From Sphingobium sp. Leaf26 (GTDB taxonomy: Bacteria > Pseudomonadota > Alphaproteobacteria > Sphingomonadales > Sphingomonadaceae), in contig NZ_LMKV01000023.1 of assembly GCF_001421665.1 (NCBI RefSeq), forward strand, positions 251,879 to 315,878: a stretch of 64,000 nucleotides of DNA. Reading direction: 5' to 3'. Position 1 is the stretch's first letter; every line of letters begins with the position of its first letter. A program made the position numbers and the translations under genes. Below the pieces are notes generated by a model that was not told the DNA's origin, searched no databases, and worked only from the letters and a program-made list of their open reading frames with translations. This document shows, piece by piece, positions 26,954 through 50,740 of this stretch.

Positions 26954-27451
26954 TTAGGTCGCGATCAGGCCGTGTCCGCGCAAGGCTTCCAGAATAGCCG
27001 CGATCGTAGAGCGGGCCTGCACGTCGATCACGCTCCCCCCGCTGGCCACCGGGATCGCCGCCAACCGTTCGCCCACCACTTTTTCTTCGTTCAGATATAT
27101 GCCGTCGTCCCGTATCGCACCGGCTCGCCATTCTGTCCCGTCGTAGAAAAGCGCATGATCCCGGTCCGCGACGCCGATGGACAGGCCCGCACGCGGCACG
27201 ACGAAGCGCCATCCTCCTTCGGTCCAGAGCGCGACCGTTCCCGCCTGCCCGGCCCAGTCGCCCGCGGCCCCGTCCGCCACGATCCAGCATTGGCCGATCA
27301 GCGCGTCGCCCGGCGGACTGCCCAGATCGGCGCTTTCCACCCGCCCGTGCAGCAGCGCATCGATCAGCACAAGTGCCTCATTATGCGTAATTTCCTTCTG
27401 CGCCTGCCCCGCAAACAACAGGGGCATCGCCCATCGCGCCGTTCCATCCAT
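26954..27451 (-). CDS. DUF2793 tail-associated protein
   Basis: Last gene of the phage-like cluster, 165 residues. The N-terminus MDGTARWAMPLLFAGQAQKEITHNEALVLID is the DUF2793 hallmark found in tail-fibre-type proteins of alphaproteobacterial prophages and GTAs. The remainder repeats Gly/Trp-rich beta strands (GGWRFVVPRAGLSIGVAD). It probably forms part of the adsorption apparatus with the tail hub gene directly upstream (25 bp). ATG at 27451 is preceded by AGGAG eight bases upstream. A palindrome ATATTACGGTAATAT follows the stop. Confidence 0.85.
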   Translation of the reverse strand: MDGTARWAMPLLFAGQAQKEITHNEALVLIDALLHGRVESADLGSPPGDALIGQCWIVADGAAGDWAGQAGTVALWTEGGWRFVVPRAGLSIGVADRDHALFYDGTEWRAGAIRDDGIYLNEEKVVGERLAAIPVASGGSVIDVQARSTIAAILEALRGHGLIAT

Positions 27452-27475
27452 GCTCAATTCTCCTCTTGATCCCGG

Positions 27476-29674
27476 TCAGGCGACGAAGCCGACCGACGCG
27501 GCCCGCCCCGGCGCCCGCGTCCCCATCTGCCGCACCTCCGCGACCAGCGATCGCCCGGCGCTGCCGTCCGCCGCGATCATCGCCGCCTCATAGGTCCAGT
27601 GCGGCACCGCGCTCTCGACACTGCGCAGCACCGCCGCCCCATCCAGCAGGCGGATGGCATAGCGTTCCGTCTCCTCGCCCAGCGGCACGTCGCCGCCATT
27701 GCTCCAGTGCCAGCCTGCCCGGCTGCGCCGCACCCAGCCGATCCGCCAGCCGCCATCGCGCGCCGCCACCGTCAGATGCACCGGCGACGGCGGCACCAAC
27801 GCCATGCCCTCGATCGTCAGCGCCGCCTCCACCGGCGCGACATCGCCCAGGCCCAGCGCCGCCACCCGCAGCATCGCCCCCGTTTCGCCGACGCTGCCCA
27901 GCGCCGCCAGCGGTTCGACCAGCCGATCCTCCTCGATCAGCAGGAAGCGCTCGCCCGCCTCATGCCCCGCCATCGCCCATTCGGTCCCGCGCAGCCCCCG
28001 GCGCAAACCGCCCAAGCGATAATGATCCGGCCCGATCCGCTCCGCCGTCTCGAACTGCATCAACTCCCGTCCCACCAGGCACAGATTCCGCCCCTGCCTC
28101 TGCGCCGCCGCATCCGCGCCGCCCAGGTCCATATCCTGCGCCAGCAACGTCACCGACAGGGTATGAAGCCGATCCACCAGCGTCGCGCTCCCCGCCGGCA
28201 AAGCCGCGTCCACACTCCCCATCACCGCCCGCAACCCGCTGCGCCCGACCGGCATCGCCTCGCCGCTCTCGCTCATCACGAACAAAGCCGCACTGCGCCA
28301 GCCTGCGCCGCCGCTCGCCGCCGCGACCAGCAACGGCGCGCTCGCCACCCCGTCCTTCAACCATGGCAGGTCCGCCAGCATCAATGTCGTCTCGCCATGC
28401 GGGGCATCAACCTGCCGCACGATCGCGCCGGATGAAGCGCCGGCCGGCAGCATGCCTCCCGCGCCCGGCACCCGCCGCAGCGCCAGCCGCACCGCCATCG
28501 CCTCCCATTCCCGCTCCTCGATCCGCCACAGCCCCGGCGCGTCCGCCACGCTCACCACCGCGCCCGGCGCCAAAGCCAGCGCCCGCCAGTCGCAGCGCAG
28601 CGCCATCGTCGCCCGCCCGGTCCAGCCAGCCGCCAGTCGTACCGCCGCCAGCGCCCGCGCCTCGTCCGCCGCCATCATGGCGGGCAATTCCATGCCCTGC
28701 TCCTGCCGCCCCGGCCCCGGCCGCGTCACCCGCTGCAACCCGGCCTGATAATCGCGCGCCGCATCATAATGGCGCAGGGTCAGCGCCACCGGCACCGCAT
28801 CGGCCGCCGCGCCCGATCGTTCCAGCGGCTCGACCGCCTGCCCGTTCACCCGCCGCACCCGCGCCCCCACGCCGATCTCGCCTTCGGCCACCGCAGCCGT
28901 CGGCACCAGCCGCAAGCCCGCTTCATCGGATCGCAGCGCCAGCCCATGCGCCTCGACCAGCGGCATGATCGCGTCCCGCACATCGCTCCCGCTCGCGGCA
29001 AAGCCATCCACGGTCGCTAGTCCCGCGCCGCCCAGCCGCCCCTCGCTCAGCGCCCCGGCCATCGCGTCGATCGCAACCGCGCCCTCGTCCGCCTCCACCT
29101 CGAAGGTCAGCGACGGAATGCGATTGCCATAATCGGCCAGCGCCAGATCCTCGAACAGCACATAGGCGATCCCGCGATGCGCCGGCGTCACGCCCATCCC
29201 CTCCGCCGCCGCAATCAGCGGATCGACCGGCTGGTCCTCTCCACCGCCATGCACGCGAAAGGCGGAAACCTCGGTCTTGAAATCCCCTGCCGCCCCGCGC
29301 AGCAGATTGCCGTCCGCCCAGATCCGCCGCACGGACCGGATCGCCCGCGCCGACAACGCCACCGCAAAACTCGCCGAATAGCTGTAGCTGGTGACGCTCG
29401 GCCGCCCCTTGCCACCGCCGCCCCTGCTCTTCACCTCCTTCAGGTCCGTGGCCCATATCACCGTGCCCGCCACCCGCATCGTGCCGAACAATTTGGGCAC
29501 CTGCGTCCCGTAACTCGACGTCTGCACTTGCAGGTCGGACAGGCGCGGCCCCTCGCGCCCCTTGGGTTTGAACAGGACCTGATTGTCGATGACATTGCCG
29601 ATCACCGCCCCGATCGCCCCGCCGATCGGCCCGCCCAGCGCAGTCCCCACCGCCGTCAGCACCACCGTCGCCAT
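27476..29674 (-). CDS. Phage/GTA tail hub protein (RcGTA g15-like, shortened)
   Basis: Baseplate hub-like tail protein of 732 residues; RcGTA g15 is about 1300, so this is a short form. The N-terminus has a glycine-zipper membrane-like stretch GTALGGPIGGAIGAVIG followed by LFKPKGREGPRLSDLQVQTSSYGTQVP, GTMRVAGTVIWATDLKE and PSLTFEVEADEG, a conserved N-terminal signature of GTA/siphophage tail hubs. The centre and C-terminus (ERYAIRLLDG, MIAADGSAGRSLV) look like immunoglobulin-like beta domains. Likely drives attachment and DNA ejection. Confidence 0.88.
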   Translation of the reverse strand: MATVVLTAVGTALGGPIGGAIGAVIGNVIDNQVLFKPKGREGPRLSDLQVQTSSYGTQVPKLFGTMRVAGTVIWATDLKEVKSRGGGGKGRPSVTSYSYSASFAVALSARAIRSVRRIWADGNLLRGAAGDFKTEVSAFRVHGGGEDQPVDPLIAAAEGMGVTPAHRGIAYVLFEDLALADYGNRIPSLTFEVEADEGAVAIDAMAGALSEGRLGGAGLATVDGFAASGSDVRDAIMPLVEAHGLALRSDEAGLRLVPTAAVAEGEIGVGARVRRVNGQAVEPLERSGAAADAVPVALTLRHYDAARDYQAGLQRVTRPGPGRQEQGMELPAMMAADEARALAAVRLAAGWTGRATMALRCDWRALALAPGAVVSVADAPGLWRIEEREWEAMAVRLALRRVPGAGGMLPAGASSGAIVRQVDAPHGETTLMLADLPWLKDGVASAPLLVAAASGGAGWRSAALFVMSESGEAMPVGRSGLRAVMGSVDAALPAGSATLVDRLHTLSVTLLAQDMDLGGADAAAQRQGRNLCLVGRELMQFETAERIGPDHYRLGGLRRGLRGTEWAMAGHEAGERFLLIEEDRLVEPLAALGSVGETGAMLRVAALGLGDVAPVEAALTIEGMALVPPSPVHLTVAARDGGWRIGWVRRSRAGWHWSNGGDVPLGEETERYAIRLLDGAAVLRSVESAVPHWTYEAAMIAADGSAGRSLVAEVRQMGTRAPGRAASVGFVA

Positions 29675-29709
29675 AAGCCCCTCCTAAACACGTCATTGTT
29701 CGCTTCACC

Positions 29710-30087
29710 TCAGGCCCGCCACCAACCCAGCACCGGCCATGGCGACACCCCCGGCATTTCGACCACCCGCCCCAGCCCTGCATGGGCATGGACGAACCCC
29801 GTTCCGGTTCCGATCATCAGATGCAGTTGCAAAGGCCCCGGCCGCACCAGCGCGAGATCGCCCGGACGCGCCACCGTCACCGGCCGCAGCCCCGCCGCCC
29901 GCAGCCAGCCCTCCGCCCGCGCCACATCGCCGCTGCGCAGCCCATAGGCGCAGGGCACATCGGACGCCCCATCCCGCCCCAGCGCCACCGCCGCCAGCCC
30001 GACGCAATCCAGCCCGCTCCCGCTGCGCCCATGCAGCCGGAACGGCACGCCGATCATCGCCCGCGCCCGCTCTACGATGTTGCTCAT
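29710..30087 (-). CDS. NlpC/P60 tail-tip cell-wall peptidase (RcGTA g14-like)
   Basis: A 125-residue C40 peptidase expected to open peptidoglycan during DNA entry. The catalytic Cys is C28 in GSGLDCVGLAAVAL, and the His lies in the LHLMIGTGTGFVHAHAGLGRVVE segment. Start ATG of MSNIVERARAMIG overlaps the DUF2163 stop by four bases (ATGA). In the RcGTA and many siphophage clusters the same DUF2460-DUF2163-NlpC-hub order is kept. Confidence 0.92.
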   Translation of the reverse strand: MSNIVERARAMIGVPFRLHGRSGSGLDCVGLAAVALGRDGASDVPCAYGLRSGDVARAEGWLRAAGLRPVTVARPGDLALVRPGPLQLHLMIGTGTGFVHAHAGLGRVVEMPGVSPWPVLGWWRA

Positions 30088-30899
30088 GCGCCGGGATAGC
30101 GGGTCAGCAGATCCATCCCCGGCAGATAAGGTTCCCCGCGAAAATTCACCCCATTGCCGAAACGCCCGGCGCAGGTCGCCAATTGCCGGTCGCACCCTTC
30201 CGTCAGCAGCGCCAGCGTCCCGCTCGCCACCGCAAAGGCCGGCGGATCGCTCAACGTCACGCCGTCCGCGCCATTATCCACCACCGCCTGCACCAGCCCG
30301 GCATTGGCCCCGCCCAGCCATCGCAACGTCCCGAACGCATAGGCGCCCGCTGCCAGTCCCCCGATCGCAATCTCCGTATCCGTCACGCTATCGACTGCTA
30401 CGATCCGCCGCCGCGCGGCCATATCGACCCGGCATGCCATGTCGCCCAGCCTCGCCCGGCAATCGGGCGAGGTCGACGGCGCCACCGGCCCGCCCAGCAC
30501 CGCCGCCACGCCCAGCAGTTCCGCGGTAAACGCCCCGCCCTTGCACGCCACCGCGCCCATCTCGCCGCGCGCCAGCAGCAACCACAATGCCCCCGGCATT
30601 TCCCATTGCGTCAGCCGCAATTCCAGCGCCGCCCCGTCCCAGCGCCCGGCCATCAGGTCCGCCTCGCCGATCGCATCGCTCGACAGCGCACCAGCCACAT
30701 CGCTATCCTCGCCCTCCAGGCCAATGCCGCTACGCACCGCCGACGGCGTCATGCCCGGCGCCGCACGATAGGTCAGCCCGCCGATCACCAGATCGCGATC
30801 ATGGCTCGTCAGGCCGATCGTCACCCCATCCCGCCGCTCGATCCGCCAGCAAAAGGCCAGCGTATTCAGCGGTTCGCCCAGCCTTTCCAGATCGCTCAT
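30084..30899 (-). CDS. DUF2163 tail protein (RcGTA g13-like)
   Basis: A 271-residue distal-tail component. Recognised by the C-terminal signature CRARLGDMACRVDMA and the end TCAGRFGNGVNFRGEPYLPGMDLLTRY, with paired cysteines. The ATG overlaps the preceding gene by four bases and its stop overlaps NlpC/P60. Together with DUF2460 it is expected to form the tail tip around the hub, in line with the cryo-EM assignment of RcGTA. Confidence 0.9.
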   Translation of the reverse strand: MSDLERLGEPLNTLAFCWRIERRDGVTIGLTSHDRDLVIGGLTYRAAPGMTPSAVRSGIGLEGEDSDVAGALSSDAIGEADLMAGRWDGAALELRLTQWEMPGALWLLLARGEMGAVACKGGAFTAELLGVAAVLGGPVAPSTSPDCRARLGDMACRVDMAARRRIVAVDSVTDTEIAIGGLAAGAYAFGTLRWLGGANAGLVQAVVDNGADGVTLSDPPAFAVASGTLALLTEGCDRQLATCAGRFGNGVNFRGEPYLPGMDLLTRYPGA

Positions 30900-33226
30900 T
30901 GCCGTATCTCCACCAGCATCACCGACGGAGCTTCGCCCGCAGCAAAGGTCGCGCGGTTGATATCCAGCCGGTCCTCGGCAAAGCGCACCGGCACATCGAA
31001 CCGGTATCCGGCGGTCAGCACCACGCCGTCCGCCGGCGCCACATCGAACGCGATCACGCCCAACCCCGCATGGCTCCACCCCTCCGTCAATTCCACGCCA
31101 TCGGCCGCCACGTGGATGCTGCCCGGCACCGGTCGCGTGATGATCCGCCCCTGCGCCTCCTCGCCCACGCCATAATGGCGCATCAACTGAAACGCGGCCG
31201 TCACCCCGTCACCCACGCCCAGCCGCTGGTCGATCGGCCCCGGCGCCACGCCCGGCGCGCCGCTGCGATCATCATAGGGATCGGTGAAACGGAACCCCCG
31301 CGCCGCCCCCCGCCGCGCCCGAAAGAAAGCGATCAGCGCGGCGATATCCGCCTCCGACCGCACCCCCGGCCCGGCATCATAGGACAACCGCGCATCCGCC
31401 CAGTCGGCGCTGCGCCGCTCATGCCCCGACGGGCTCTCCACGATCTGCGTCGAAAAGGCCGGCGATACGCTGGCCTGCGCCCCGATCGCGATCGGAAACA
31501 CTATGTCATCAAAGGCTTGCACATCATCCTCCCCACCAATGCTAAAGCAGGTAAAGCCATCGCGGCACACTTGCGGCAGCGCCCATATGAAGGTCTGTGC
31601 CGTCCCCCGCGCCACTGCCGCCTGCGCCGCTCCGGCAATCCGCTCCCATTGCGCGGCCTGTTCGGACAGCAGCACGAAGCCGGAAAAATAATGCTGCTCG
31701 GAAATCGGATAGCCCAGCCGCGCCGTCGCCAGCATCACGCCCCTGTCGGTCAGGCCGGGCCGCCCCTCCGTCACCCAGTCATAATCCTCCAGTTGCAGCA
31801 CATCGAACGCCGGGGCCGCCCATCCCACCGGCATGTTCGCCCGCTTCGCCTCCGGCGCGCGCGGGTCCAATATCGTCGGGAGATATGCCAGCAAATGCGT
31901 CACCGCCCCCGGCGCGACCGCTTTCACGGATGCGCACAAGGCCCCCGTAGACGCCGCCAGCAACGCCCCCGCCGCATCCAGCAAAGCGCATTGCCCGGCA
32001 TCCAGATCACCCCACAGGCTCGGAATGGACACCACACTCCCGCCCAGCGCCGCCCGCGCCGCATCGTCATACAGGCATATCCGCCCGTCCCCCGGCATCA
32101 CCCACCACCAGGGTTCACCCACCTGAAACAGGATCGGCAGTCCAGCTTCCAACCCCATGGAAACAAAGGCACAGGCCACCTGCTGCAAATACGCCATCGC
32201 ACCGCCATGGGCCGGCGACAACAGGGTCGACGGCGGCTCCCATCCGGTCAGCGCCGGCGCGCCATCCTCCGCCCGCTGCTTCCAGTCGTTCCAGCAATGC
32301 GCATCGAACAATTCGTAGGACAGCGACCAGATGACATCGAAGCCCAGCGCCTTCGCCCGGCTCGCAAAGTCCCGGTGCCAGGCCGCACAGGCCGCGTTCA
32401 GCACCCCGCCGCCCAGACTGACGTAAAGCCCGTCGCCCAGTCTTTCGAGCCGGAAATAATGGCTCATCCCCACATAATGGTTGATCGCCCCGCGATAGCC
32501 CAGCGCATGGATCGCCCCCACCACCCGTTCGGGCGTCTGGTTGAAACAATCGTCGTAACCGGTCGCCATCGACAGCCCATGTTCGGGCAGCATCACGTCG
32601 CCGATCGCCAGCACTGACCCCGCGCCCTCGCACGCAATATCGCTCAGTTCCGCCCACCCCTCGACCGCAGCGGCAAAGGGCGTAGTCCCTTCATCATAGC
32701 CAGGCGGCACGAGCGAAATGAACATCCGATCGACATCCCCCGCCCACACCGGATCGGCCTCTGACGGCAGGTCATAGCCACCCGTCAGCGCAGCAAAATC
32801 CAGCCTGATGACAGCATCTTCCGGCGCACCGCTGGCATAGTTCCACAAGCGCACATACCAGGCGCGGGGGGTTCCGTCCGCATCACGCCCCTCGATCGTC
32901 AGCGTCGGTCCATGCGTCTCGTCCAGCCGCCGCACGCCTGCGCTGCGCCACCGAAAGGACAGCACGCAATCCCGGAAATCCCGTCGCGTTTCATAGGCAA
33001 GCAAAGGATGGCTCCACCCATCCGCCGCGTCCCAGATCAGTCCCGCCAGATCGCCCGACCCGTAAAAGATCGCATCCACCCGCAGCGCATCCGGCGCGGT
33101 CGTCACGACGCTCGCCATCATCGGTCGCGGAAAATTGACGGTCCAGTGCGTGGCGGCAAAGCGCTTCATCCAGCGCGTCTCCTGCCCCCGCCGCGCGTCC
33201 GCCAGCCAATATCCTGTCCCGCCCAT
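30896..33226 (-). CDS. DUF2460 distal-tail protein fused to an N-terminal glycosidase-like (TIM-barrel) domain
   Basis: A 776-residue fusion. The last about 190 residues are DUF2460 (VSPAFSTQIVESPSGHERRSADWADARLSYDAG, RARRGAARGFRFTDPYDD), matching the roughly 210-residue RcGTA g12. The first about 580 residues are not present in RcGTA g12: they contain aromatic, acid-rich motifs of a TIM-barrel hydrolase-like fold (INHYVGMSHYFRL, FDVIWSLSYELFD, GLPILFQVGEPWWWV, FDVLQLEDYDWV), similar to the non-contractile tail-sheath TIM-barrel domains of some siphophages. The carboxylates in SYELF and VGEPWW are candidates for catalytic residues. Start overlaps the tape-measure stop by one base. Confidence 0.85.
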   Translation of the reverse strand: MGGTGYWLADARRGQETRWMKRFAATHWTVNFPRPMMASVVTTAPDALRVDAIFYGSGDLAGLIWDAADGWSHPLLAYETRRDFRDCVLSFRWRSAGVRRLDETHGPTLTIEGRDADGTPRAWYVRLWNYASGAPEDAVIRLDFAALTGGYDLPSEADPVWAGDVDRMFISLVPPGYDEGTTPFAAAVEGWAELSDIACEGAGSVLAIGDVMLPEHGLSMATGYDDCFNQTPERVVGAIHALGYRGAINHYVGMSHYFRLERLGDGLYVSLGGGVLNAACAAWHRDFASRAKALGFDVIWSLSYELFDAHCWNDWKQRAEDGAPALTGWEPPSTLLSPAHGGAMAYLQQVACAFVSMGLEAGLPILFQVGEPWWWVMPGDGRICLYDDAARAALGGSVVSIPSLWGDLDAGQCALLDAAGALLAASTGALCASVKAVAPGAVTHLLAYLPTILDPRAPEAKRANMPVGWAAPAFDVLQLEDYDWVTEGRPGLTDRGVMLATARLGYPISEQHYFSGFVLLSEQAAQWERIAGAAQAAVARGTAQTFIWALPQVCRDGFTCFSIGGEDDVQAFDDIVFPIAIGAQASVSPAFSTQIVESPSGHERRSADWADARLSYDAGPGVRSEADIAALIAFFRARRGAARGFRFTDPYDDRSGAPGVAPGPIDQRLGVGDGVTAAFQLMRHYGVGEEAQGRIITRPVPGSIHVAADGVELTEGWSHAGLGVIAFDVAPADGVVLTAGYRFDVPVRFAEDRLDINRATFAAGEAPSVMLVEIRQ

Positions 33227-33780
33227 CAGCCCAGCGCCCCCTTGACCGCCCGCGCCACCTGCCGCGCGCTGCGCGCCAGCAATCGCGGCTCGCTCTCGCC
33301 ACCGCGTCCATTGACTGCGATACTCACCCGCACGTCCCGCCCGCCGCCGCCATGCGCCACGACCTGCCCGCTACTCGTCGGCACGAACATTTCCGGCCCC
33401 CGCTCGCCGACCATATAGGCCCGCCCCGGCGCCACCGACCCGCCCGTCGCCCGTCCCGGCAGGCCCAGCGCCGACGTCATCAGCGACGCCCCCAAGCTCA
33501 CCAGCCCGCCGGCGCCATTCCCGCCGCCGCCCACGGCCGACCGCAGCGAACTGGCCGCAATCTCGTCCATCACGCTGACGGCGATCCGCCGCAGATCCTC
33601 GAACCCGAACTTGCCGGTCCGCACCGCGCGCATCAGCCCCTGTTCGATCCGCCGCCCGGCTCGGTCCGCCCCGTCGCCCAACGGCCCTTCCAGCCCCGCC
33701 CGCATCGCCTCCACATCGCGGCTCAGCCCCTGCGTATCGGCCCGCACCCGCACCACCAAAGTCTCGATATCCTCGTCCAT
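33226..33780 (-). CDS. Short tape-measure protein (RcGTA g11-like)
   Basis: A 184-residue tail-length protein beginning MDEDIETLVVRVRADTQGLSRDVEAMRAGL, the phage lambda-family tape-measure N-terminus, followed by Gly/Ala-rich helices and the conserved end APGRAYMVGERGPEMFVPTSSGQVV typical of tape measures. At about 0.15 nm per residue it would specify a tail of only some tens of nanometres, as in RcGTA, whose g11 is about 219 residues. Start ATG chosen over a GTG 69 bases upstream that lies inside a dispersed repeat. Confidence 0.88.
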   Translation of the reverse strand: MDEDIETLVVRVRADTQGLSRDVEAMRAGLEGPLGDGADRAGRRIEQGLMRAVRTGKFGFEDLRRIAVSVMDEIAASSLRSAVGGGGNGAGGLVSLGASLMTSALGLPGRATGGSVAPGRAYMVGERGPEMFVPTSSGQVVAHGGGGRDVRVSIAVNGRGGESEPRLLARSARQVARAVKGALG

Positions 33781-33801
33781 AGCCCGCCCTCCAACCTGTA
33801 G

Positions 33802-33838
33802 AGCCCCTCCCTTTTTCAGGGGAAGGGTTGGGGTGGGG
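33802..33838. repeat. Dispersed repeat, family 2, copy 1
   Basis: AGCCCCTCCC...CAGGGGAAGGGTTGGGGTGGGG; related copies at 35421-35455 and 57395-57429. GC hairpin followed by a TTGGGGTGGGG tail. Lies between the tail-chaperone and tape-measure genes. Confidence 0.75.
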
Positions 33839-33867
33839 GCGTGCTCCACACACCCACCTTCATGCCC

Positions 33868-34065
33868 TCAATCCGGCATCACCCCCATCAACCGCCGCAA
33901 CTCCGCCCCATCCACGGCGGCTTCGACCGCCTCCTCCCCCCGCGCCGCGCGCAGCACCGCCGCCAGTTCCGCCGGCGTCGCGCGCCAGAATTCGTCGGGC
34001 CGCCAGCCCAGCAGCCATCCGGCCACCCCCGCCAGCCGCCCCGCCCCATCGGCGAAGCGCGTCAT
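33868..34065 (-). CDS. Phage tail assembly chaperone, TAC_6/DUF2376 (RcGTA g10.1-like)
   Basis: A 65-residue protein carrying the family motif WRPDEFWRATPAELAAVL and ending LRRLMGVMPD. In siphophages this second chaperone protein covers the tape measure during tail assembly. The ATG overlaps the stop of the TAC_11 gene by four bases (ATGA). Although very small it is well supported by motif and overlapping frame. Confidence 0.87.
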   Translation of the reverse strand: MTRFADGAGRLAGVAGWLLGWRPDEFWRATPAELAAVLRAARGEEAVEAAVDGAELRRLMGVMPD

Positions 34066-34373
34066 TTTCCCGCCAATATCTGTTGCAAAATCGCCTTCAG
34101 CACCGGCGTCACCTTCGCCAGCCCCACCGCGACGATCGCCTCGCCCAGCGCCTCGCGGCTCACCGCCTCCCGATCCACCAGACAATGCCAGAACAAAGCC
34201 ACCAGATCGGCCAGCGACAGCTTTCCATCCGCCGCCCGCTCGACCAGATCGAACAGCGGCCCCAGTTCCGCCTCGGCCGCCACCAGCGCCCCGAAACTCG
34301 GCCGCAGCGCCAGCCGCTCGCCGCCCAGATCCAGCGCCGCCTCACCCCTTTCGGGATTGAATGCCCCGCTCAT
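34062..34373 (-). CDS. GTA-type tail assembly chaperone (TAC_11, RcGTA g10-like)
   Basis: A 103-residue protein with the gene-transfer-agent family signature GGERLALRPSFGALVAAEAELGPLF and LSLADLVALFWHCL, matching the TAC_11/GTA family. It chaperones the tape measure with the downstream small protein. Start overlaps the major tail protein stop (ATGA), and its own stop overlaps the next gene. Confidence 0.9.
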   Translation of the reverse strand: MSGAFNPERGEAALDLGGERLALRPSFGALVAAEAELGPLFDLVERAADGKLSLADLVALFWHCLVDREAVSREALGEAIVAVGLAKVTPVLKAILQQILAGK

Positions 34374-43171: not shown

Positions 43172-43191
43172 ATGAGCACCCCCCAAAACGC

Positions 43192-43220: not shown

Positions 43221-43279
43221 TCCGTGAAAATCAGCAGCGCCAGCCGCTGACCCAAAACCGGAGAGGGGGCGTCCCCCCC

Positions 43280-43621: not shown

Positions 43622-43703
43622 ATTTGCTCCGTTAAATCATGATGGAGCGAAAACGACCCGCCCCGCCGGCCGGTTCCCCAAGCCGACGGGGCCATCCGCA
43701 ATG

Positions 43704-44336
43704 TCAGTCCATCCGCGATATGAACTGCTCCACCGGCCGCCGCACCTTCTTCAGGTTCACCAGCCAGTCGCCTTCCTCCGCGCGATAGCCGACCGGCATG
43801 ATCGCCACGGAGCGCAACCCGCGCGCCCGCAAATCCAGAATCTCGTCCAGCGCCGCCGGATCGAACCCCTCCATCGGCGTCGCATCCACCTCTTCGAAGG
43901 CGGCGGCGGTCAGCGCGATGCCCAGCCCCACATAGGCCTGCCGCGCGGCATGTTCGAAATTGGTCTGCGCGTCGCGCTGCGGATAGCTGCCCAGCAGCAT
44001 CTGGCGATAGGCTTCCCAGCCCTCATTTTTGAACCCGCGCTCGTCATTGACCAGGTCGAACATATGGTTGATCCGCTCTGGCGTATAATTGTCCCACGCG
44101 GCAAAGACGATCAGGTGCGACGCATCCGTCACCTGCTCCTGGTTCCAGGCGATCGGCTTGATCTTTTCGCGCACGTCCTTGCTGGTGACGACGATCAACT
44201 CGAACGGCTGCAACCCGCTCGACGTCGGCGCCAGCCGCACCGCCTCCAGGATGCGCTCCAATGTCTCTTCCGGCACCGCCTTGTCCGGGTTCATCTTCTT
44301 GGTGGCATAGCGCCAGTTCAAACGGTCGATCAGCAT
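43704..44336 (-). CDS. Nitroreductase family NAD(P)H oxidoreductase
   Basis: A 210-residue flavin-dependent reductase: MLIDRLNWRYATKKMNPDK at the start, LAPTSSGLQPFELIVV in the FMN-binding part, and the C-terminal GLRSVAIMPVGYRAEEGDWLVNLKKVRRPVEQFI. It would reduce nitroaromatics or quinones using NAD(P)H and FMN. Start ATG chosen with AGAGG upstream. Host-type gene within the structural cluster. Confidence 0.9.
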   Translation of the reverse strand: MLIDRLNWRYATKKMNPDKAVPEETLERILEAVRLAPTSSGLQPFELIVVTSKDVREKIKPIAWNQEQVTDASHLIVFAAWDNYTPERINHMFDLVNDERGFKNEGWEAYRQMLLGSYPQRDAQTNFEHAARQAYVGLGIALTAAAFEEVDATPMEGFDPAALDEILDLRARGLRSVAIMPVGYRAEEGDWLVNLKKVRRPVEQFISRMD

Positions 44337-44632
44337 GCGATACCTCTTCATGACAGCGCGCCCGGCCTGAACCCGGCGCATGCCGCTATGATGTAGAGGC
44401 TTCGCCGCCGAAATAAAGGTATCGTTTAAAAACTGGAACTCCCGCCCCGACAATCCGGAAACGACCATCTCCCGTCACCTCGGACGTGATCCGGGGTCCC
44501 GCTTTTTCTGACGCTTGCGGAGACAGCAGGATGCCGGATCAAGCCCGGCATGCCGAAAGGGGCTATGGCGGTTAACGAGCATTCCCTACCATTCCCCTCT
44601 CGCTTGCGGGAGGGAGAAGACTGAAATCCACC
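44337..44632. other. Gene-free stretch between nitroreductase and DUF805-like genes
   Basis: Roughly 300 bp with no credible gene. It contains short GC palindromes (for example GCCGGATCAAGCCCGGC near 44530 and CCCCTCTCGCTTGCGGGAGGG near 44595) typical of dispersed sphingomonad repeats, and the upstream region of the nitroreductase. Confidence 0.5.
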
Positions 44633-45001
44633 CTAAACCGACTGAGGCTCGGATCTAGCGTCGCCCTTGGACGGAATAACCCATCCCAAAATTACCGGCA
44701 CGCAGCCTATAATGGCCCCGCCAAGACTGACCGTCAGCAGATCGGACACATGCCAGGTTGGACCGATACCGAATGAAAGGATCATCAGCCCGACCCAGGC
44801 GCCAGAAAATCCACCATCGCGAAGGCGGCGGTAGGTGATGACGATCAGTAATGCCAATAGAGGCGCAGCGACGAGGAAGCTGAGCCAGTCAGCTACGCCA
44901 ATCAAAACCCCCGCCAGCGCGAGGCAGGATGCCGCTATCAGCGCAATCGAGCCAAACCGATAACGCGATCGTTCGGAAAAAGTCGTCAAATTCCATCCCA
45001 T
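44633..45001 (-). CDS. DUF805-like membrane protein
   Basis: A 122-residue protein with four hydrophobic segments: about residues 15-35, 40-58, 66-88 and 92-112. RYRFGSIALIAASCLALAG, VITYRRLRDGGFSGAWVGL resembles the DUF805 core (RRLHDxGxSGWW in other members). Function unknown. It stands alone after the large terminase stop, on the same strand. Confidence 0.65.
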   Translation of the reverse strand: MGWNLTTFSERSRYRFGSIALIAASCLALAGVLIGVADWLSFLVAAPLLALLIVITYRRLRDGGFSGAWVGLMILSFGIGPTWHVSDLLTVSLGGAIIGCVPVILGWVIPSKGDARSEPQSV

Positions 45002-45053
45002 GGCTTATCATATACCTGCTGGACCAACCCCAATCCACCCCCAATCCACCCCC

Positions 45054-46367
45054 TCACATCCCCCTGACCCGCGCCTCGCCCTTCTTCCCCAGCATCAGTT
45101 CCGTCATCGCCCACACCAGCGCGTCGGCCCGATCGGGCGAGCGCCCCGGCCCGACATAGCCGCCCCCCGCCAGAAGCCCGCACATCTGGTCCTCCATCTG
45201 CGGGAAAGCGCCGCGATGCGCCACCCGCCCGGCCTCGTACAGCGCCGCCACCGGCTCCGCCCGCGCCGACTTGCCCCGGCTCGCATGGACCAGCTTGAGC
45301 GGCAGCGCCTCCTCCGCCGCCAGCAGCACGCTCGCCACCATCGCCCCGCCATTATTGGCCTCGGCCACCACCCGGTCGGCGCCATGCACCAGCGCAGCAG
45401 CCGCCACCGCCCGCGCCCAGCCTTCGGGCGACTGCCCCGCCACGCTCGCGTCGGCGATCACATAGGCCCGGCCGTCGCCGCCGACACCGGCCACCACGAT
45501 CCCGCACGCATCGCCGCCCGCCGAAGCCGGCGGATCGACCGCCACCACCACGCGCGTCAGCATCCCCGGCACATGCGCCACCCGGCACCGCTCGATCAGG
45601 TCGCGCGACCACAGCGCGCCCTCCACCTCCTCGATCAGTTCGCCGTCCAGTTCCTGCCGGCCCAGCCGGGTGCCGCCATAGCTGTCGGTCATCGCCGCGA
45701 CGAAGCCCGGCGCCAGATTGCCCGCATTCTCCGCCGTCCGCCCCCGCGTCACCACGACATCGCCCCCGTCACGGGCTACCAGCCCGCGCACCAGCGGCAC
45801 CGGTCGCGGCGTCGTCGTCGCCAGCACCTGCGGACAGGCGCCCAGCCGCAATCCCATCATCAGATTATGCCAGGCCGCCTCGCCGCTCGCCCATTTGGCG
45901 ATCTCGTCGGCCCAGCCATGGCTGAACTGCGGTCCGCGCAAACTCTCCGGCTCGGCCGCGCCGTACAGTGTCGCCATCGCGCCATTGGGCCAGCGCAAAG
46001 TCCGCAGCGCCGGCGCATAAGACGGCCGGTTCCACCACGGCGCGATCGCCAGCAGACCGCTCGCCCCCTCCACCATCACGCTGCGCGTCTCGCCCAGCGT
46101 CGCCCCGACCAGCGCGATCCGCGCCGCCGGGTCCGCTTCCGCCACGGCGCGCACCCATTCCGCCCCGGCCCGCGTCTTGCCATAGCCGCGCCCGGCCATC
46201 ATCAGCCAGATGCGCCACGCGCCCGCCGGCGGCAACTGCCCCCGTCGCGCCAGATAGCGCCACTCCTGCGCCAGCCGCTCCGCCGCCGGCAAGTCTTCCA
46301 GCAGGTCCAGCACCGCCCGGCCGGCCGCTTCCTCCGCGACCAGCCATTCCCTGCCCGAAATCTCCAT
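45054..46367 (-). CDS. Large terminase subunit (RcGTA g2-like)
   Basis: A 437-residue packaging motor. The ATPase domain has Walker A GRGYGKT at residues 59-65 (RIWLMMAGRGYGKTRAGAEW); the C-terminal nuclease domain has the RNase H-like VVVAVDPPASAGGDACGIVV and later DALVWAMTELML. In RcGTA-like elements this motor packages host DNA without sequence specificity; that property cannot be read from the sequence. Start ATG of MEISGREWLVAEE. Confidence 0.94.
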   Translation of the reverse strand: MEISGREWLVAEEAAGRAVLDLLEDLPAAERLAQEWRYLARRGQLPPAGAWRIWLMMAGRGYGKTRAGAEWVRAVAEADPAARIALVGATLGETRSVMVEGASGLLAIAPWWNRPSYAPALRTLRWPNGAMATLYGAAEPESLRGPQFSHGWADEIAKWASGEAAWHNLMMGLRLGACPQVLATTTPRPVPLVRGLVARDGGDVVVTRGRTAENAGNLAPGFVAAMTDSYGGTRLGRQELDGELIEEVEGALWSRDLIERCRVAHVPGMLTRVVVAVDPPASAGGDACGIVVAGVGGDGRAYVIADASVAGQSPEGWARAVAAAALVHGADRVVAEANNGGAMVASVLLAAEEALPLKLVHASRGKSARAEPVAALYEAGRVAHRGAFPQMEDQMCGLLAGGGYVGPGRSPDRADALVWAMTELMLGKKGEARVRGM

Positions 46368-46420
46368 CGCCCTCCCCCCCCCAAAAAAATTCGCGCAAAG
46401 GCGCCGGGATCGCACAGACG

Positions 46421-46444
46421 AAAAAAGGCCACCCAAAGGCGGCC
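46421..46444 (-). terminator. Terminator behind the M28 peptidase
   Basis: On the minus strand GGCCGCC / GGTGGCC with one G-U pair, followed by six T. The wobble pairs only in that orientation, fixing the direction. Confidence 0.8.
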
Positions 46445-46488
46445 TTCCTCTCAAATCTCTGCGCTTTCGGCGCCTCTGCGCGAACCGA

Positions 46489-47799
46489 TTATTTCCGCGG
46501 CGCCATCCCGCCGAACGTCACCACACTCTCCGCCCCATCCTTCGCCACGGCCGCCACGCCGATGAAATGATCGTCCACCACGATATCCTTCAGCACCGTC
46601 TCGGTCGCGCCCGCGACCACCCGGCTGTCGCTCCAGTCCTGCGCATCGGCCCGCCGCCAATAGACCTTGTAGGCCGCCGCCCCCGGCACAGCGTCCCAGA
46701 ACACCCGCGTATCCATCGACAGCGCCCCGTCCAGCGAGACGGTCGCCGGGGCCGCCGGCGCATCCGCCAACTGCCGCAGCGCCGTGACGTTAAGCGCCGT
46801 CACCTTCGCCAGATAGGGAAAGTCCATCCCCTCGACCGTATCGCCATAGACGCGGCCATTCTCGGTCCGCAAATCCTGATGCTGCCGGTCATAATTCTCG
46901 ATCCCGACCGAAAAGCGCACCGCTGGAAACCCCAGTTCCAGGAAAGGCGAATGATCCCCGCCCCGTCCGAACCGGTCCAGCCGCCGCACCGCGAACACGT
47001 CCAGCCCGATCTGCGGATTGCCCTCCGCTATGCCGTCGATCTTCTTGGCCAGCGCACGCGATGGCCCGTCATCCTCGCCGCCGATCGCCCGGCGCGTCAG
47101 ATTGGCCTTGGCATCCTCCGAAAAGCGGATGCCTTCGGAAAACACCCGCACCCGGTCCGCCACTTGTTGTCCATTCTGGCCCACCGTGTTGCCCACGATA
47201 TCGTTGTTCAGCATCGCCCGCACCTGCCAGCCGCGCTTTTTCGCCGTCTCCGCCAGCAGCTTGGCGCCCCACAGCCCCTGCTCCTCGCCCGACAGTAGCG
47301 CATAGATGATCGTCCCGTCGAACTTTTCGCCCGCCAGCACCCGCGCCGCCTCGATCACCAGCGCCGTGCCCGACGCATTGTCGTTCGCGCCCGGCGCATC
47401 GTCGGTGATGTTCATCACATCGGTCACGCGGCTGTCGATATGCCCCGCCACGATCACCACTTGGCGTGGATCGCCCGTCCCCTTCTGGATCGCCAGCACA
47501 TCGGCTACTTCGACACCGTTCGGCGCCCGCGGCCCGGTGAACGGCCCGGAAATCGTCTCCACGCTCAGGCACCCGCCGCACCCCTTGCTGATCTTCGCAA
47601 ATTCATCCGCGCCCCATTTGCGCGCCGCGCCGATCCCCCGCTTCGGGTCGGTCGCCGAAGACAGCGTATGGCGCGTCCCGAACCCGACCAGTCTCTCCAC
47701 CGTCGCCTTCAACCGCACAGGATCGGGCGCGCGCGTCTGCGCGGCGGCGGGTGTAACAGTCAGGGCGGATGCTGCGGCCAGCAGGATGATTTTTCTCAT
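46489..47799 (-). CDS. M28 family zinc metallopeptidase with C-terminal FnIII-like domain
   Basis: A 436-residue exported aminopeptidase-type enzyme. Signal peptide MRKIILLAAASALTVTPAAA. Catalytic motifs: VIVAGHIDSR (metal His and Asp), PGANDNASG, LLSGEEQGLWGAKL (Glu nucleophile), LNNDIVG and DRFGRGGDHSPFLELGFPAVR. The C-terminal 90 residues (SMDTRVFWDAVPGAAAYKVYWRRADAQDW) look like fibronectin type III. It follows the large terminase on the same strand and is a host-type gene, not a phage part. Confidence 0.9.
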   Translation of the reverse strand: MRKIILLAAASALTVTPAAAQTRAPDPVRLKATVERLVGFGTRHTLSSATDPKRGIGAARKWGADEFAKISKGCGGCLSVETISGPFTGPRAPNGVEVADVLAIQKGTGDPRQVVIVAGHIDSRVTDVMNITDDAPGANDNASGTALVIEAARVLAGEKFDGTIIYALLSGEEQGLWGAKLLAETAKKRGWQVRAMLNNDIVGNTVGQNGQQVADRVRVFSEGIRFSEDAKANLTRRAIGGEDDGPSRALAKKIDGIAEGNPQIGLDVFAVRRLDRFGRGGDHSPFLELGFPAVRFSVGIENYDRQHQDLRTENGRVYGDTVEGMDFPYLAKVTALNVTALRQLADAPAAPATVSLDGALSMDTRVFWDAVPGAAAYKVYWRRADAQDWSDSRVVAGATETVLKDIVVDDHFIGVAAVAKDGAESVVTFGGMAPRK

Positions 47800-47968
47800 C
47801 CCCCCGGTCTACCGCCTGTCGCACATCTGTAAAGCACCCCCGTCCTTCTCGCGCCCGCAGCATAATCCCCAATATAGATCAAATATTTATCCCTTGACGA
47901 CGCCCCCGCCACAAATGCACCAGAGCAAAACTCGGCTCCGGGGGGAGTTGAGTCTTTTGGGGGTTTAC

Positions 47969-48805
47969 ATGTTCAGAATGACTATTGCGGCTATGGCGCT
48001 TGCCATCGCCTCGCCTGCCTTTGCGGAAACATTGAGCGTGGATAGCGTGATCACATTGTCGCAAGCAGGCATTGGCGACGAAGCCGTAATAGCCAAGATC
48101 AAGACATCCGGCACCAAATTCGATCTGACGACGGATGAAATGCTCATGCTCAAGAGCAAGGGCGTCTCCGGGCCAGTCATCGCTGCGATGCTGAACAACA
48201 GTGCGACCACCGCCGCTCCGACCATGTCGATGGATTCATCCGATCCACTCGTTCCTCATCCGTCTGGGGTCTATCTCCTGTCCAGCACCGGCGCAGGCCG
48301 CAAGATGCAGCGTATTGATCCCACTATCACCAATCAGGCCAAAACTGGTGGCATCATTGGTTATGCCTTCACGGGCGGCATTGCGTCGATGAGCATCAAA
48401 GCTGCCATTCAGAACGAGGCCGCCCGCGTCCGCGCCCAACCCGGTCGCCCCAGCTTCTATTTCTTCTTCGACGAATCCAATCCTGACACTGCGCGCGCGA
48501 ATACCGCTTGGGCAGCCGGCACAGCGGCGACCGTCTCTTCCCCAGCCGAGTTTACGCTGATCAAACTCATGAAGAAAGATGGCCGTCGAGAAGCGCGGGT
48601 CGGCAGCGCGAACATCGGCGGGGCAAAGACGGGCGTCATGGATAAGGATCGCCTTCCCTTCGACTATGAAATGGTCCGTCCGGGCGTCTTCAGAGTAACC
48701 CCTACGCAAGAGCTGGAAGCCGGTGAATATGGTTTCATCTACGCTCTTACACCCGGTGGATCATCCGGTGCCATGACTGCGCGTATCTTCGACTTCGGCA
48801 TCTGA
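47969..48805 (+). CDS. Exported protein of unknown function
   Basis: A 278-residue protein with a signal peptide (MFRMTIAAMALAIASPAFA). The N-terminal part SVDSVITLSQAGIGDEAVIAKIKTSGTKFDLTTDEMLMLKSKGVSGPVIAAML is a helical, lipoprotein-like helix-turn region seen in several exported bacterial proteins; a middle stretch TGGIIGYAFTGGI is Gly-rich; the rest is beta-rich with PGVFRVTPTQELEAGEYGFIYALTPGG. No family is recognised with confidence. Divergent from the M28 gene. Confidence 0.7.
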   Translation: MFRMTIAAMALAIASPAFAETLSVDSVITLSQAGIGDEAVIAKIKTSGTKFDLTTDEMLMLKSKGVSGPVIAAMLNNSATTAAPTMSMDSSDPLVPHPSGVYLLSSTGAGRKMQRIDPTITNQAKTGGIIGYAFTGGIASMSIKAAIQNEAARVRAQPGRPSFYFFFDESNPDTARANTAWAAGTAATVSSPAEFTLIKLMKKDGRREARVGSANIGGAKTGVMDKDRLPFDYEMVRPGVFRVTPTQELEAGEYGFIYALTPGGSSGAMTARIFDFGI

Positions 48806-48969
48806 CGCCTTCGCTGGAAATCAAGGCCAACTGATCGTCAGGCGCGCGGGCGGCGTCGACGGGGCTGGTACGCCCCTCGCGCCGCCGCCCGCGCCCGCCT
48901 GCCAGGATCGCCCTGAATCCATCCCGATGAACCCATTTCCGTTCCGGTCGTTCTTCACTCCGGGAGACT

Positions 48970-49335
48970 ATGCGCATGGATGTGGATTTCGACATCGTCC
49001 CCGACCCCCGTCATAATATGATGCGGGTGCGGATGACCGGCTTTTTCGATCAGGAGCAGGTGCGGCAATTCGCCGCCGCCTACCGCTCGGCCCTTGCCGG
49101 CCTGACATCGCCCGGCCATCTGACGCTGGTGGATATCACGGCGATGAAGATCCAGGCGCAGGATGTCGTGGCCGCCTTTTCCGGCCTGCTCGCCGCGCCG
49201 GACGTGCGATCGCGCAAGCTCGCCTTTCTCTGCGGCTCCACCCTTGCCCGGCTTCAGGCGCAACGGCTGACCGACCGGGACGGCGTCTGCTTCTTCGAAG
49301 ACCCCGTCGCCGCCGAACGCTGGCTGCTGGCTTGA
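48970..49335 (+). CDS. STAS-like / SpoIIAA-like domain protein
   Basis: A 121-residue cytosolic protein. The pattern MRMDVDFDIVPDPRHNMMRVRMTGFFDQEQVRQFAAAYRSALAGL then LTLVDITAMKIQAQDVVAAFSGLL and KLAFLCGSTLARLQAQRL fits the STAS/SpoIIAA-like fold used by anti-anti-sigma factors and similar proteins. The phosphorylatable serine of true antagonists is not clear. GGGA precedes the ATG. Confidence 0.65.
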   Translation: MRMDVDFDIVPDPRHNMMRVRMTGFFDQEQVRQFAAAYRSALAGLTSPGHLTLVDITAMKIQAQDVVAAFSGLLAAPDVRSRKLAFLCGSTLARLQAQRLTDRDGVCFFEDPVAAERWLLA

Positions 49336-49357
49336 AAAACCCGACCGGCGACTGCGA

Positions 49358-49699
49358 TCAGTAGGTCCGGCTCGTCACCTTCGCAGTGCCGTCGGGCAAG
49401 ATCTGGATCAGGTGCGCGCTCTCATTGCTGCACTGCGCCTTCCACCCGCGCACGCCATGGCGAATTTCCGCCCGTTCCGATCCCGTCACTTCCGGGCAGG
49501 CCGCACCGCTGTCGCGGATCGCCTTGGCGAACACGCCATTGCGCAAATCCTCGTCCAGCCTGGCCACCTGCGCCGCCGCGCCGGTTTCCGGCTCGATCCG
49601 GTTTTCCGCCACGACCTGCCCGGTTCCGCCATCACCACAGCCGGCCAGCGCGCCACTCAGCATCGCGGCCAGACCCAGCATCATCAGCTTGCGCACCAT
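49358..49699 (-). CDS. Small lipoprotein
   Basis: A 113-residue predicted lipoprotein: signal with lipobox LSGALAGC, then a short glycine linker, an acidic helical part (IEPETGAAAQVARLDEDLRNGVF) and a C-terminal cystatin-like beta part with cysteines (CPEVTGSERAEIRHGVRGWKAQCSNESAH). No specific family recognised. It converges on the STAS-like gene. Confidence 0.72.
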   Translation of the reverse strand: MVRKLMMLGLAAMLSGALAGCGDGGTGQVVAENRIEPETGAAAQVARLDEDLRNGVFAKAIRDSGAACPEVTGSERAEIRHGVRGWKAQCSNESAHLIQILPDGTAKVTSRTY

Positions 49700-49769
49700 T
49701 CATCTCCCATCATCCGAACCATCTCTGCCCGCTACCGTCATCCATGGCAAATGTCCGGTGGCCAAATTG

Positions 49770-50093
49770 TCAGGCCGATCGCGGCCCCCACAGGATCACC
49801 GCGCCACCGATCAAACAGATGGCCATGCCGATCATATCCCACCGGTCCGGCCTTACCCCCTCCATCGCCCACAGCCACAGGACCGCCGCCATGATGTAGA
49901 TCGCCCCATAGGCGGCATAGGCTCGCCCGGCATGATCCGCCTCCACCAGCGTCAGCAGCCAGGCGAACAGGCACAGCGACGCGACGCCCGGCCCCAGCCA
50001 CCAGACCGACCGGCCCATCCGCAACCAGGCCCAGAAGGCAAAACAGCCCCCGATCTCCGCCAGCGCGGCGCCGATATAGACAAGCACGGTCAT
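49770..50093 (-). CDS. YnfA family (UPF0060) membrane protein
   Basis: A 107-residue, four-helix membrane protein. [80 protein letters not shown] is the YnfA pattern, a small-multidrug-resistance-like family with reported roles in drug efflux. Start ATG of MTVLVYIG. Confidence 0.95.
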
Positions 50094-50206
50094 GCCCAAC
50101 GCCGTGACACCATCACGGCCCGATCGCAAGCGCAGGCGCTCAGAACTGAATGTCGATCGGCCCTGGTCGCAGCGGGGCAGGCCGTCGCAACGTCCTGCGC
50201 CCATCC

Positions 50207-50740
50207 CTAAACCCCCGCCATTTCCCGTCGCCAGCCGATCTCGCCCAGCACCGCCTCGACCCGCGCGATGGCGTCCGCGCTGTCGGGCCGTCCCACCACC
50301 TCTCTCGCCGCGCGCCGCTTCTCCATCCGGTCGCGATGCAGCGCAAACAGCCGCAACGCCACGGCCAGGTTGCGCACGCGCTTCACCTTGCGCGCCTTCA
50401 CCGCCCCCTCGCCGTCCAGCACCACTTCCTCGACCTCGCTGCCATGCAGCGCCTCGCGCATCAGCATCAGTTCGATCTCGCCATAGCCTTCCTCCAGCGC
50501 ATCGTCCCACGCCTCGGCAAAGCCCGTGTCCAGCTTGCGCCGGCGATAGGCGCTGGCACGGCAGACCCCGGCCTCGCGCGCGGCCTCGCTGGCGTTGCAA
50601 CTGTCCGCCAGCGCCGCGAAGAAGGCCTGCACCTTTTCCACCGTCCAGCCATCCTCGCGCACCTTGCGCTTCTGCCCCCGCGCACCGCCGTCCCTGTGCT
50701 GGCGCCCCGCCACCAGTTCCCGCTCCGCTTCACCCGCCAT
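50207..50740 (-). CDS. Terminase small subunit candidate (RcGTA g1-like)
   Basis: A 177-residue basic protein that starts [29 protein letters not shown], then a helix-turn-helix: [45 protein letters not shown] (recognition helix ASAYRRRKL), then helical oligomerisation region. Small terminases bind DNA through such HTH domains. Ribosome-binding site GGAGGAGGG lies seven bases upstream of this ATG; longer starts are possible. It lies 4 kb upstream of the large terminase, separated by host genes, which is unusual. Confidence 0.65.

Follow-up and report, generated by a model that had tools for sequence, protein, structure and literature searches.

A probable RcGTA-like gene transfer agent cluster with a rebuilt tail tip in Sphingobium sp. 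Leaf26

Introduction

The closest described counterpart of the locus reported here is the gene transfer agent (GTA) of Rhodobacter capsulatus, RcGTA (Rhodogtaviriformidae), whose GH108 endolysin and holin are encoded at a separate location. RcGTA-like clusters are already known from sphingomonad genomes (PMC6821227; papers are cited here by PubMed Central number), where they had earlier been described as a 'conserved prophage' (Viswanathan 2017, as cited in PMC6821227), presumably the same element as the one analysed below. Here, we examined a 64,000-nucleotide stretch of DNA from Sphingobium sp. Leaf26 (contig NZ_LMKV01000023.1, positions 251,879 to 315,878), hereafter referred to as the window, in whose numbering all coordinates are given. 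Its minus strand carries a cluster that is probably the head–tail operon of an RcGTA-like Sphingomonadales GTA, in a form whose tail tip has been rebuilt.

The window cluster shares with RcGTA the gene set and order, the capsid, the core of the distal tail protein (Dit), the hub and the ends of the megatron, and the genome likewise encodes a GH108 endolysin and a GTA-type holin at a separate site. By contrast, its megatron lacks the peripheral TIM barrel, its Dit carries an N4-type barrel, a fibre and an adaptor lie inside the head genes, a DUF2793 gene adjoins g15, and further genes interrupt the cluster. In RcGTA, the megatron peripheral domain comprises residues 230–744 (PMC7296036); in phage R4C, it is predicted to be mannanase-like (PMC10276861). 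A July 2026 preprint (PMC13420450) calls the exact function of the RcGTA baseplate protruding domains, megatron TIM barrel included, unknown.

Two phages provide further parallels. The non-contractile tail sheath of phage N4 (gp64/gp65) has the same NCTSP-type barrel, with acidic residues of the window barrel aligning with gp64, but in the window this barrel forms one protein with a siphophage-type Dit. The adaptor matches the fibre–tail adaptor gp77 of podophage GP4 (PF23148) over its full length, but here it neighbours an S74 fibre within a GTA cluster. The Caulobacter GTA (CcGTA) resembles the window cluster in having one promoter before the first gene and an internal terminator, which is passed with GafZ (PMC11150451). 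It differs in that its terminator consists of GC-rich repeats and in that Caulobacter vibrioides, a control in our class scan, has the barrel domain GTA_TIM.

Results

Profile and open reading frame (ORF) searches delineated an RcGTA-type head–tail cluster that runs collinearly from the small terminase to a tail fibre on the minus strand (26954–50773). Counts of loci refer to the best 80 of 535 capsid relatives found, in which gene presence was counted by tblastn; these are not 80 genomes (L029 and L069 come from one genome), and they carry 10-kb flanks around the capsid gene, many stopping before the outer genes. The structural genes are as follows.

50207–50773, minus: g1, small terminase (phrog_4044, E 1.2e-11; 50/80 loci)
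45054–46367, minus: g2, large terminase, TerL (PF03237 and PF17289; 65/80 loci)
42038–43171, minus: g3, portal (PF04860, E 7.6e-72)
41173–41481, minus: DUF6127 gene, probable g3.5 position (PF19622, E 1.8e-25; 74/80 loci)
40769–41170, minus: g4, prohead protease (PF04586, E 6.2e-22)
38686–39825, minus: g5, HK97 major capsid (PF05065, E 9.9e-87; RcGTA capsid 6tb9, E 2.1e-92)
36121–36663, minus: g6, head–tail adaptor (TIGR02215, E 2.8e-24; phrog_442)
35933–36154, minus: 73-aa ORF at the g7 (stopper) position (placed by position; no family match)
35532–35936, minus: g8, tail terminator (PF11367, tail completion gp17, E 4e-09, in a longer ORF)
34370–34777, minus: g9, tail tube (PF06199, E 1.7e-40)
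34062–34373, minus: g10, tail assembly chaperone (phrog_2115, 'tail protein', E 1.6e-14, and position)
33868–34065, minus: g10.1, tail assembly chaperone (PF09550, E 2.5e-10, in a longer ORF)
33226–33780, minus: g11, short tape measure (phrog_30701, of unknown function, E 1.3e-103; weaker tape-measure phrogs)
30896–33226, minus: g12, Dit (DUF2460), 776 aa, fused behind NCTSP_N and the NCTSP TIM barrel
30084–30899, minus: g13, baseplate hub (TIGR02218, E 1.1e-60)
29710–30087, minus: g14, NlpC/P60-like peptidase (PF00877 under the cut-off, E 0.0043, and position)
27476–29674, minus: g15, short megatron, 732 aa (partial alignment to the RcGTA megatron; NF048004, 441.8 bits)
26954–27427, minus: DUF2793 tail fibre, 3' end of the cluster (PF10983, E 2.3e-29)

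The set g1–g15 follows RcGTA order with open frames, and the nearest solved structure to the capsid is that of RcGTA; its best sequence relatives belong to Sphingobium species, with 90% identity to S. lactosutens. The 73-aa ORF at the g7 position is perhaps a replaced head-completion protein, going by its position and by the replacement of g7 described in some Sphingomonadales (PMC9765227). DUF2793 has been listed as an RcGTA tail fibre protein (PMC10883770). Structural coding sequence, including the fibre and adaptor described below, accounts for 15.4 of 23.8 kb, the remainder being interrupting genes and spacers.

An initial annotation, made from the sequence alone, had assigned these genes to the minus strand, ordered as in RcGTA and with intact frames, as the searches confirmed. 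The genes that it named are present, DUF2460 and the hub among them; it had not named the S74 fibre, the PF23148 adaptor, DUF2335 or DUF2793, and had noticed neither the N4-type domains nor the shortening of the megatron nor the promoter-like element described below. Its description of GC content as host-like holds in part: the core genes have 70.1% GC and a coding-strand G skew of 0.264, against 66.6% and 0.101 for five minus-strand flank genes, with inserts ranging from 45.6 to 70.7% and the window at 65%. No replication or lysis gene was seen among the annotated cluster ORFs, some small ORFs lying outside the searches; the window holds no tRNA, and known RNA families gave no match in 26000–52000.

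The g12 protein joins three parts: NCTSP_N (PF23844, residues 20–209), the NCTSP TIM barrel (PF23845, residues 214–558) and Dit (PF09343, residues 573–775, also matched by TIGR02217). Both NCTSP_N and the TIM barrel of the N4-type tail sheath are present, and by sequence the protein matches N4 gp64 (9lc0_M, E 6.8e-42) as well as the RcGTA Dit (6tba_6B, E 5.8e-41). The top solved relatives of its AlphaFold model (mean pLDDT 86.1) are N4 gp64 (TMt 0.65) and the R4C Dit (TMt 0.79), with TIM-barrel glycosidases ranking lower. The g12 ORF exceeds 650 aa in 66 of 68 matched loci, 34 of which align with the window over all three domains. Residues E305, E371, E480 and D481 are invariant in these 35 sequences, lie at or beside strand ends in the model and line up with N4 gp64. 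From alignment and model, we infer that they would form a glycosidase active site.

The megatron is correspondingly short, with 732 aa compared with about 1300 in RcGTA (1304 residues). It aligns to RcGTA megatron residues 25–247 and 785–1300 only, leaving residues 248–784 without a counterpart. As this gap spans the peripheral domain, g15 is a megatron without its TIM barrel. It scores 441.8 bits against the NCBIfam megatron equivalog NF048004, below the cut-off of 800 bits, and megatron searches demanding 75% coverage, such as those in PMC13420450, may miss this order.

We scanned 246 genomes of the order (163 of the same family and 83 others) and a class set of 289 genomes for the two barrels. 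PF23845 was found in 130 of the 246 (129 over the cut-off and one, G520, under it), comprising 101 of 163 in the family and 29 of 83 outside it. GTA_TIM (PF13547) exceeded its cut-off in none of the 246, with one match just under. In the class set, PF23845 occurred in 4 genomes and GTA_TIM in 29, and no genome carried both. All 14 GTA_TIM-bearing loci that were fetched encode a Dit without a barrel, consisting of the DUF2460 part only (ORF 198–263 aa). The simplest reading of these sequence data is a barrel replacement, with an N4-type barrel on Dit in place of the RcGTA barrel of the megatron. Sphingomonadales would then have a variant of the RcGTA-type particle, with a fused Dit and a megatron without TIM barrel, which we consider likely together with the GTA identity of the cluster. 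The barrel exchange, like the fibre slot and the promoter-like element described below, has no description in the literature found, beyond whose reach most subscription papers lay.

We weighed two other origins for the tip. One and the same GTA could have shifted its barrel from the megatron onto Dit, in keeping with the complementary distribution of the two TIM barrels and with their shared place at the tail tip. However, the two barrel profiles do not match each other (probability ≤1.8%), and the sphingomonad domain matches N4 gp64 by sequence and is accompanied by NCTSP_N, making such a move very unlikely. The second origin, compatible with replacement, is transfer of the whole tip block (barrel, hub, peptidase and short megatron) from a siphophage. 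In the prophage-like loci L100 (in G159) and L115–L118 (genomes of the order, where they are second copies), the megatron is likewise short and a barrel of this kind is carried on the hub, with a separate Dit. The fusion partner of the barrel therefore differs, and trees of Dit, the hub and both megatron ends place the sphingomonad GTA in a clade of its own (support 98–100), its nearest neighbour not being resolved. We regard this block origin as possible but doubtful. Many other phages also have N4-type sheath domains, and 428 records match some part of the g12 protein. One unannotated 5.4-kb phage record, MT840053.1 ('Bacteriophage sp.'), has ~62% identity to g12 and part of g15 and probably represents a piece of a GTA, not a phage.

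The cluster recurs widely and is maintained. Neighbouring GTA genes surround all 80 of the best capsid loci, as far as their contigs extend; record titles are nearly all sphingomonad, a few naming only Alphaproteobacteria or Proteobacteria. We built a core tree of four core proteins from the window and 64 of the 80 loci; support is weak for 12 of its 62 inner branches. By eye, it groups most records of Sphingobium and most of Sphingopyxis. Suspect frames are few among complete ORFs: none in g12 (0/67), g15 (0/37) or capsid (0/80), and 1/72 in portal, 2/62 in TerL, 1/71 in g10, 1/68 in g11, 1/63 in g14 and 1/23 in S74. One g12 copy, in L073, is short and was not flagged as suspect. We calculated median ratios of nonsynonymous to synonymous substitution (dN/dS) for 17 genes from 3–9 Sphingobium-group sequences each, with g14 and g10.1 outside the 17, and with g15 and DUF2793 represented by three sequences and dS > 1. 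Medians range from 0.10 to 0.56 for the structural genes apart from the S74 fibre (0.61), with 0.10 for the g9 tail tube, 0.16 for the capsid, 0.19 for g12 and 0.21 for the portal. The structural genes are thus under purifying selection in this group.

Between the capsid and g6, the window carries two genes for predicted receptor-binding parts.

37092–38549, minus: S74 tail fibre or spike, 485 aa (PF13884, C-terminal Peptidase_S74 chaperone, E 1.3e-11; 24/80 loci)
36663–36941, minus: Podophage GP4-type fibre–tail adaptor (PF23148, E 3.6e-30; 35/80 loci)

The fibre also matches tail spike 9vvr (E 4.6e-28). In other loci, this position holds an S74 fibre class (24 loci; the cluster takes in L069 and L073, L069 without a Pfam S74 match) or an adaptor class with or without fibre (32 loci by ORF clustering, 35 by tblastn). 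Six loci carry instead a spike base related to RcGTA Rcc01079, forming one cluster of which one member was tested with NCBIfam and assigned to that family; L049, with both spike base and adaptor, was entered here. In five of these six, the gene after the spike base encodes a large protein; these proteins fall into four kinds with no cluster in common, two of the kinds esterase-like, one of these under the cut-off. The remaining loci have other genes in the slot or none, and no spike base was found in the genome of Leaf26 itself. On the core tree (64 loci plus the window), slot content requires at least 18 state changes and fibre presence 9. By sequence comparison, the gap between capsid and adaptor is a swap slot for putative receptor-binding modules. 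An apparent mutual exclusion of S74 and DUF2793 in the locus maps was dropped, because in the longer loci the 10-kb flank stops short of DUF2793.

Variable spikes and a glycosidase-like barrel would also suit surface attack, raising the idea of a domesticated particle with a non-transfer use, such as killing or enzyme delivery. Terminase, portal and capsid are, however, conserved together with the tail and would be needless for a tail-only device; we judge a non-transfer particle to be very improbable.

The following further genes lie within the cluster.

49770–50093, minus: YnfA/UPF0060 (PF02694, E 9.5e-32; 0/80 loci, some of which end earlier)
49358–49699, minus: interrupting ORF (ORF score; no Pfam match; 1/80 loci)
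48976–49335, plus: interrupting ORF (ORF score; no Pfam match; 0/80 loci)
48032–48805, plus: interrupting ORF (ORF score; no Pfam match; 0/80 loci)
46489–47718, minus: M28 peptidase (PF04389, E 2.3e-22; 6/80 loci)
44633–45001, minus: DUF805-like gene (PF05656 under the cut-off, 17.9 against 25.7 bits; 0/80 loci)
43704–44351, minus: nitroreductase (PF00881, E 7.6e-24, in a longer ORF; 1/80 loci)
43280–43573, minus: glycine-zipper-like ORF between nitroreductase and portal (PF05433 under the cut-off, 17.4 against 24.2 bits; 9/80 loci)
39919–40735, minus: low-GC pair of a DUF2335 gene and a 105-aa ORF (PF10097, E 3.5e-13; 0/80 loci)
34936–35238, plus: 100-aa ORF divergent from g9 (no Pfam match; 35/80 loci)

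The interruption by host-type genes noted earlier is real for the M28 peptidase, YnfA and nitroreductase; the DUF805 and glycine-zipper matches stay under their cut-offs. The DUF2335 pair (GC 0.485 and 0.456) sits between protease and capsid; in L111 and L112, DUF2335 relatives lie between hub and megatron. None of ten proteins from interrupting ORFs matched PADLOC defence genes. The 100-aa plus-strand ORF looks likely to be secreted, judged by eye, and lies on the reverse strand in the locus maps too.

A survey of gaps between −200 and 8000 bp located where such content enters. Gaps above 400 bp were found in 32 of 65 loci between TerL and portal, 25 of 79 between protease and capsid, 43 of 79 between capsid and g6, 30 of 71 between g8 and g9, 19 of 73 between g6 and g8 (which holds the g7 position) and 5 of 50 between the terminase genes. 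They were rare between portal and DUF6127 (3/74), absent between DUF6127 and protease (0/74), and from g9 to DUF2793 affected 0–5 loci per gap (≤7%). Gene order is collinear, and genomes differ in inserted content, most of which lies in a small number of permissive gaps within the head half. The inserts in the window are mostly private. The cluster is thus collinear and interrupted, and not scattered by rearrangement as had been suggested. Some relatives, namely G408, G457 and several deletion remnants, do show real rearrangement or decay.

Upstream of the small terminase, we identified a promoter-like element, and terminator-like hairpins at three positions.

50897–50925, minus: promoter-like element (TTGACA at 50916–50911, a conserved spacer and an AACC...GG motif in front)
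50806–50829, minus: terminator-like hairpin and T-run between promoter-like element and small terminase
39833–39852, minus: terminator-like hairpin and T-run just 5' of the capsid start
38569–38592: strong hairpin and T-run just 5' of the S74 fibre

The element reads AACC-(A/T-rich)-GG, TTGACA, then TCGTCACGCTG(A/T)T..GG, and this 29-bp pattern occurs once in the Leaf26 genome, at this site (≤3 mismatches). Its 17-nt core lies 5' of the small terminase in 42 of 50 loci with ≤3 mismatches and in 37 of 50 with ≤1; two of the eight loci missing it had shortened upstream sequence. The exact core has 99 sites in 98 of the 246 genomes of the order, compared with 4 for a reversed control pattern. Among 65 genomes with both core and PF23845, 54 have the core on the same strand ≤30 kb upstream, at a median distance of 10.2 kb. 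Of the 11 others, 9 have core and PF23845 on separate contigs. A further 33 genomes carry the core without PF23845, and 9 of 10 fetched had GTA genes or remnants downstream. Core sites in G372 and G291 lack GTA genes and look like chance. The promoter-like element is a family-level feature. Its conserved −35/−10 spacer recalls in layout the GafZ-binding element between −35 and −10 of the Caulobacter GTA promoter (PMC11150451).

The element also marks remnants. In nine loci (L126–L132, L134 and L135), variously shortened GTA remnants follow a promoter-like element, often with terminase genes and DUF2793 and with most head and tail genes gone. In G408 (L136 and L137), there are two motif copies, one before the terminase genes and the other, on a different contig, before a capsid remnant and tail genes. 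The remnants in the nine loci suggest that GTA loss in relatives proceeds via internal deletion. Together with the phage-type genes, the interrupting genes and the low-GC inserts, they could speak for a decaying prophage whose structural genes are by chance still intact, the other possibility raised in the initial annotation. Most loci are, however, intact and constrained, the cluster is widely present in the order, and the element is conserved in the family. As the initial annotation had also stated, no integrase accompanies the cluster: none of the 15 PF00589 matches in the genome lies on the contig of the window. Capsid matches in phages came from 347 records, all of them below 60% identity (44–46% among the 20 matches listed). 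A decaying prophage is thus highly improbable, and the GTA reading, which gene set, purifying selection and recurrence uphold, fits far better.

Terminator-like hairpins are enriched along the cluster. Across 33000–51500, we counted 27 sites (both strands, with overlapping alternatives counted) against 9.5 (sd 3.2) in shuffles. By a strict criterion, a hairpin stands 5' of the capsid in 36 of 80 loci and in none of the shuffles, with 24 different 5' stem 7-mers. One stands 5' of S74 in 9 of 24 loci, and 0–14% of loci have one 5' of the other 16 genes. Of 42 loci, 13 have a hairpin within 130 nt after the promoter-like element, against a shuffle mean of 1.35, and in 10 of these the hairpin precedes the called start. 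The stems vary and the structure recurs; the hairpins may act as terminators that require anti-termination, mark where inserted genes end, or stabilise 5' ends. In Caulobacter, GafZ carries the polymerase past a terminator within the cluster (PMC11150451).

Elsewhere in the genome, contig C29 encodes the GH108 endolysin and a GTA_holin_3TM holin, a putative lysis pair for the cluster. One DUF6456 protein, DUF6456 being one annotation of GafA homologues (PMC9638019), lies outside the cluster. A second large-terminase match (G000:C1:678162–678824, L002) probably belongs to an unrelated prophage or remnant. Directly after DUF2793, an OmpA-type gene (25677–26753), with a relative in 11 of 15 further loci examined, is possibly a conserved neighbour or partner.

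Discussion

We propose the following course of particle production. A GafY/GafA-type activator would fire the promoter 5' of the small terminase, and a GafZ-type anti-terminator would let the polymerase read through the leader, the internal hairpins and the inserts; taken together, these two steps have about an even chance of being right. By analogy with Caulobacter, such read-through would allow the interrupted 24-kb block to work as one unit. The terminases, portal and capsid would package host DNA into a small head. At the baseplate, six Dit subunits, each with an N4-type glycosidase-like TIM barrel, would bind or cut surface polysaccharide, substituting for the barrel carried on three RcGTA megatrons. 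The S74 fibre, held near the neck or head by the GP4-type adaptor, would choose the recipient together with the DUF2793 fibre, and the separately encoded GH108 endolysin and holin would lyse the cells. No report of particle production in sphingomonads was found in the literature within our reach.

In the combined account, the order has a second RcGTA-type particle architecture: the tip was rebuilt once, from three mannanase-like megatron barrels to six N4-type barrels on the Dit ring, the fixed slot after the capsid gene repeatedly gains receptor-binding spikes, and processive anti-termination from a single conserved promoter lets the operon tolerate inserts. We hold this account as evenly balanced between right and wrong; that the exact promoter core is family-wide and not order-wide has made it somewhat less probable.

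Several observations weigh against the readings given here. The exact core is present in 95 of 163 family genomes and in 3 of the order's remaining 83, of which three two showed no GTA genes when fetched, and is missing from 65 of the 130 PF23845-positive genomes; the 29-bp pattern was not found at the lysis locus in our scan of the Leaf26 genome. In 44 of 80 loci, the hairpin 5' of the capsid does not pass the strict criterion, some hairpins may be just the ends of inserted genes, and the terminator known from Caulobacter differs in form, being made of GC-rich repeats that follow the first gene (PMC11150451). DUF6456 occurs in 171 of the 246 genomes, including the PF23845-negative G145 and G315, so that it is weak evidence and no clean marker of a GTA regulator; we did not uphold it as GTA-specific. 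As for the tip, the two TIM barrels may share a distant common origin, matches to PF23845 in the genome scan were only partly checked for fusion to Dit, and in G159 (outside the order) and some second copies the barrel is fused to the hub. As for maintenance, suspect frames affect TerL in L003 and L007, portal in L044, g10 in L063, g11 in L040, g14 in L073 and S74 in L026; g1 (dN/dS 0.56) and g8 (0.47) are weakly constrained; the cluster of G457 is split within g11; and G408 lacks portal and protease, with a capsid remnant only (two loci seen).

An order without the megatron barrel but with another barrel on another protein amounts to a natural domain-swap experiment, and suggests that the tip retains a barrel but is free as to where it comes from. 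The promoter-like element could serve as a handle for finding and inducing sphingomonad GTAs and as a search tag for their remnants. If the combined account is true, the GTA would combine a conserved chassis with targeting parts that derive from phages and can be exchanged.

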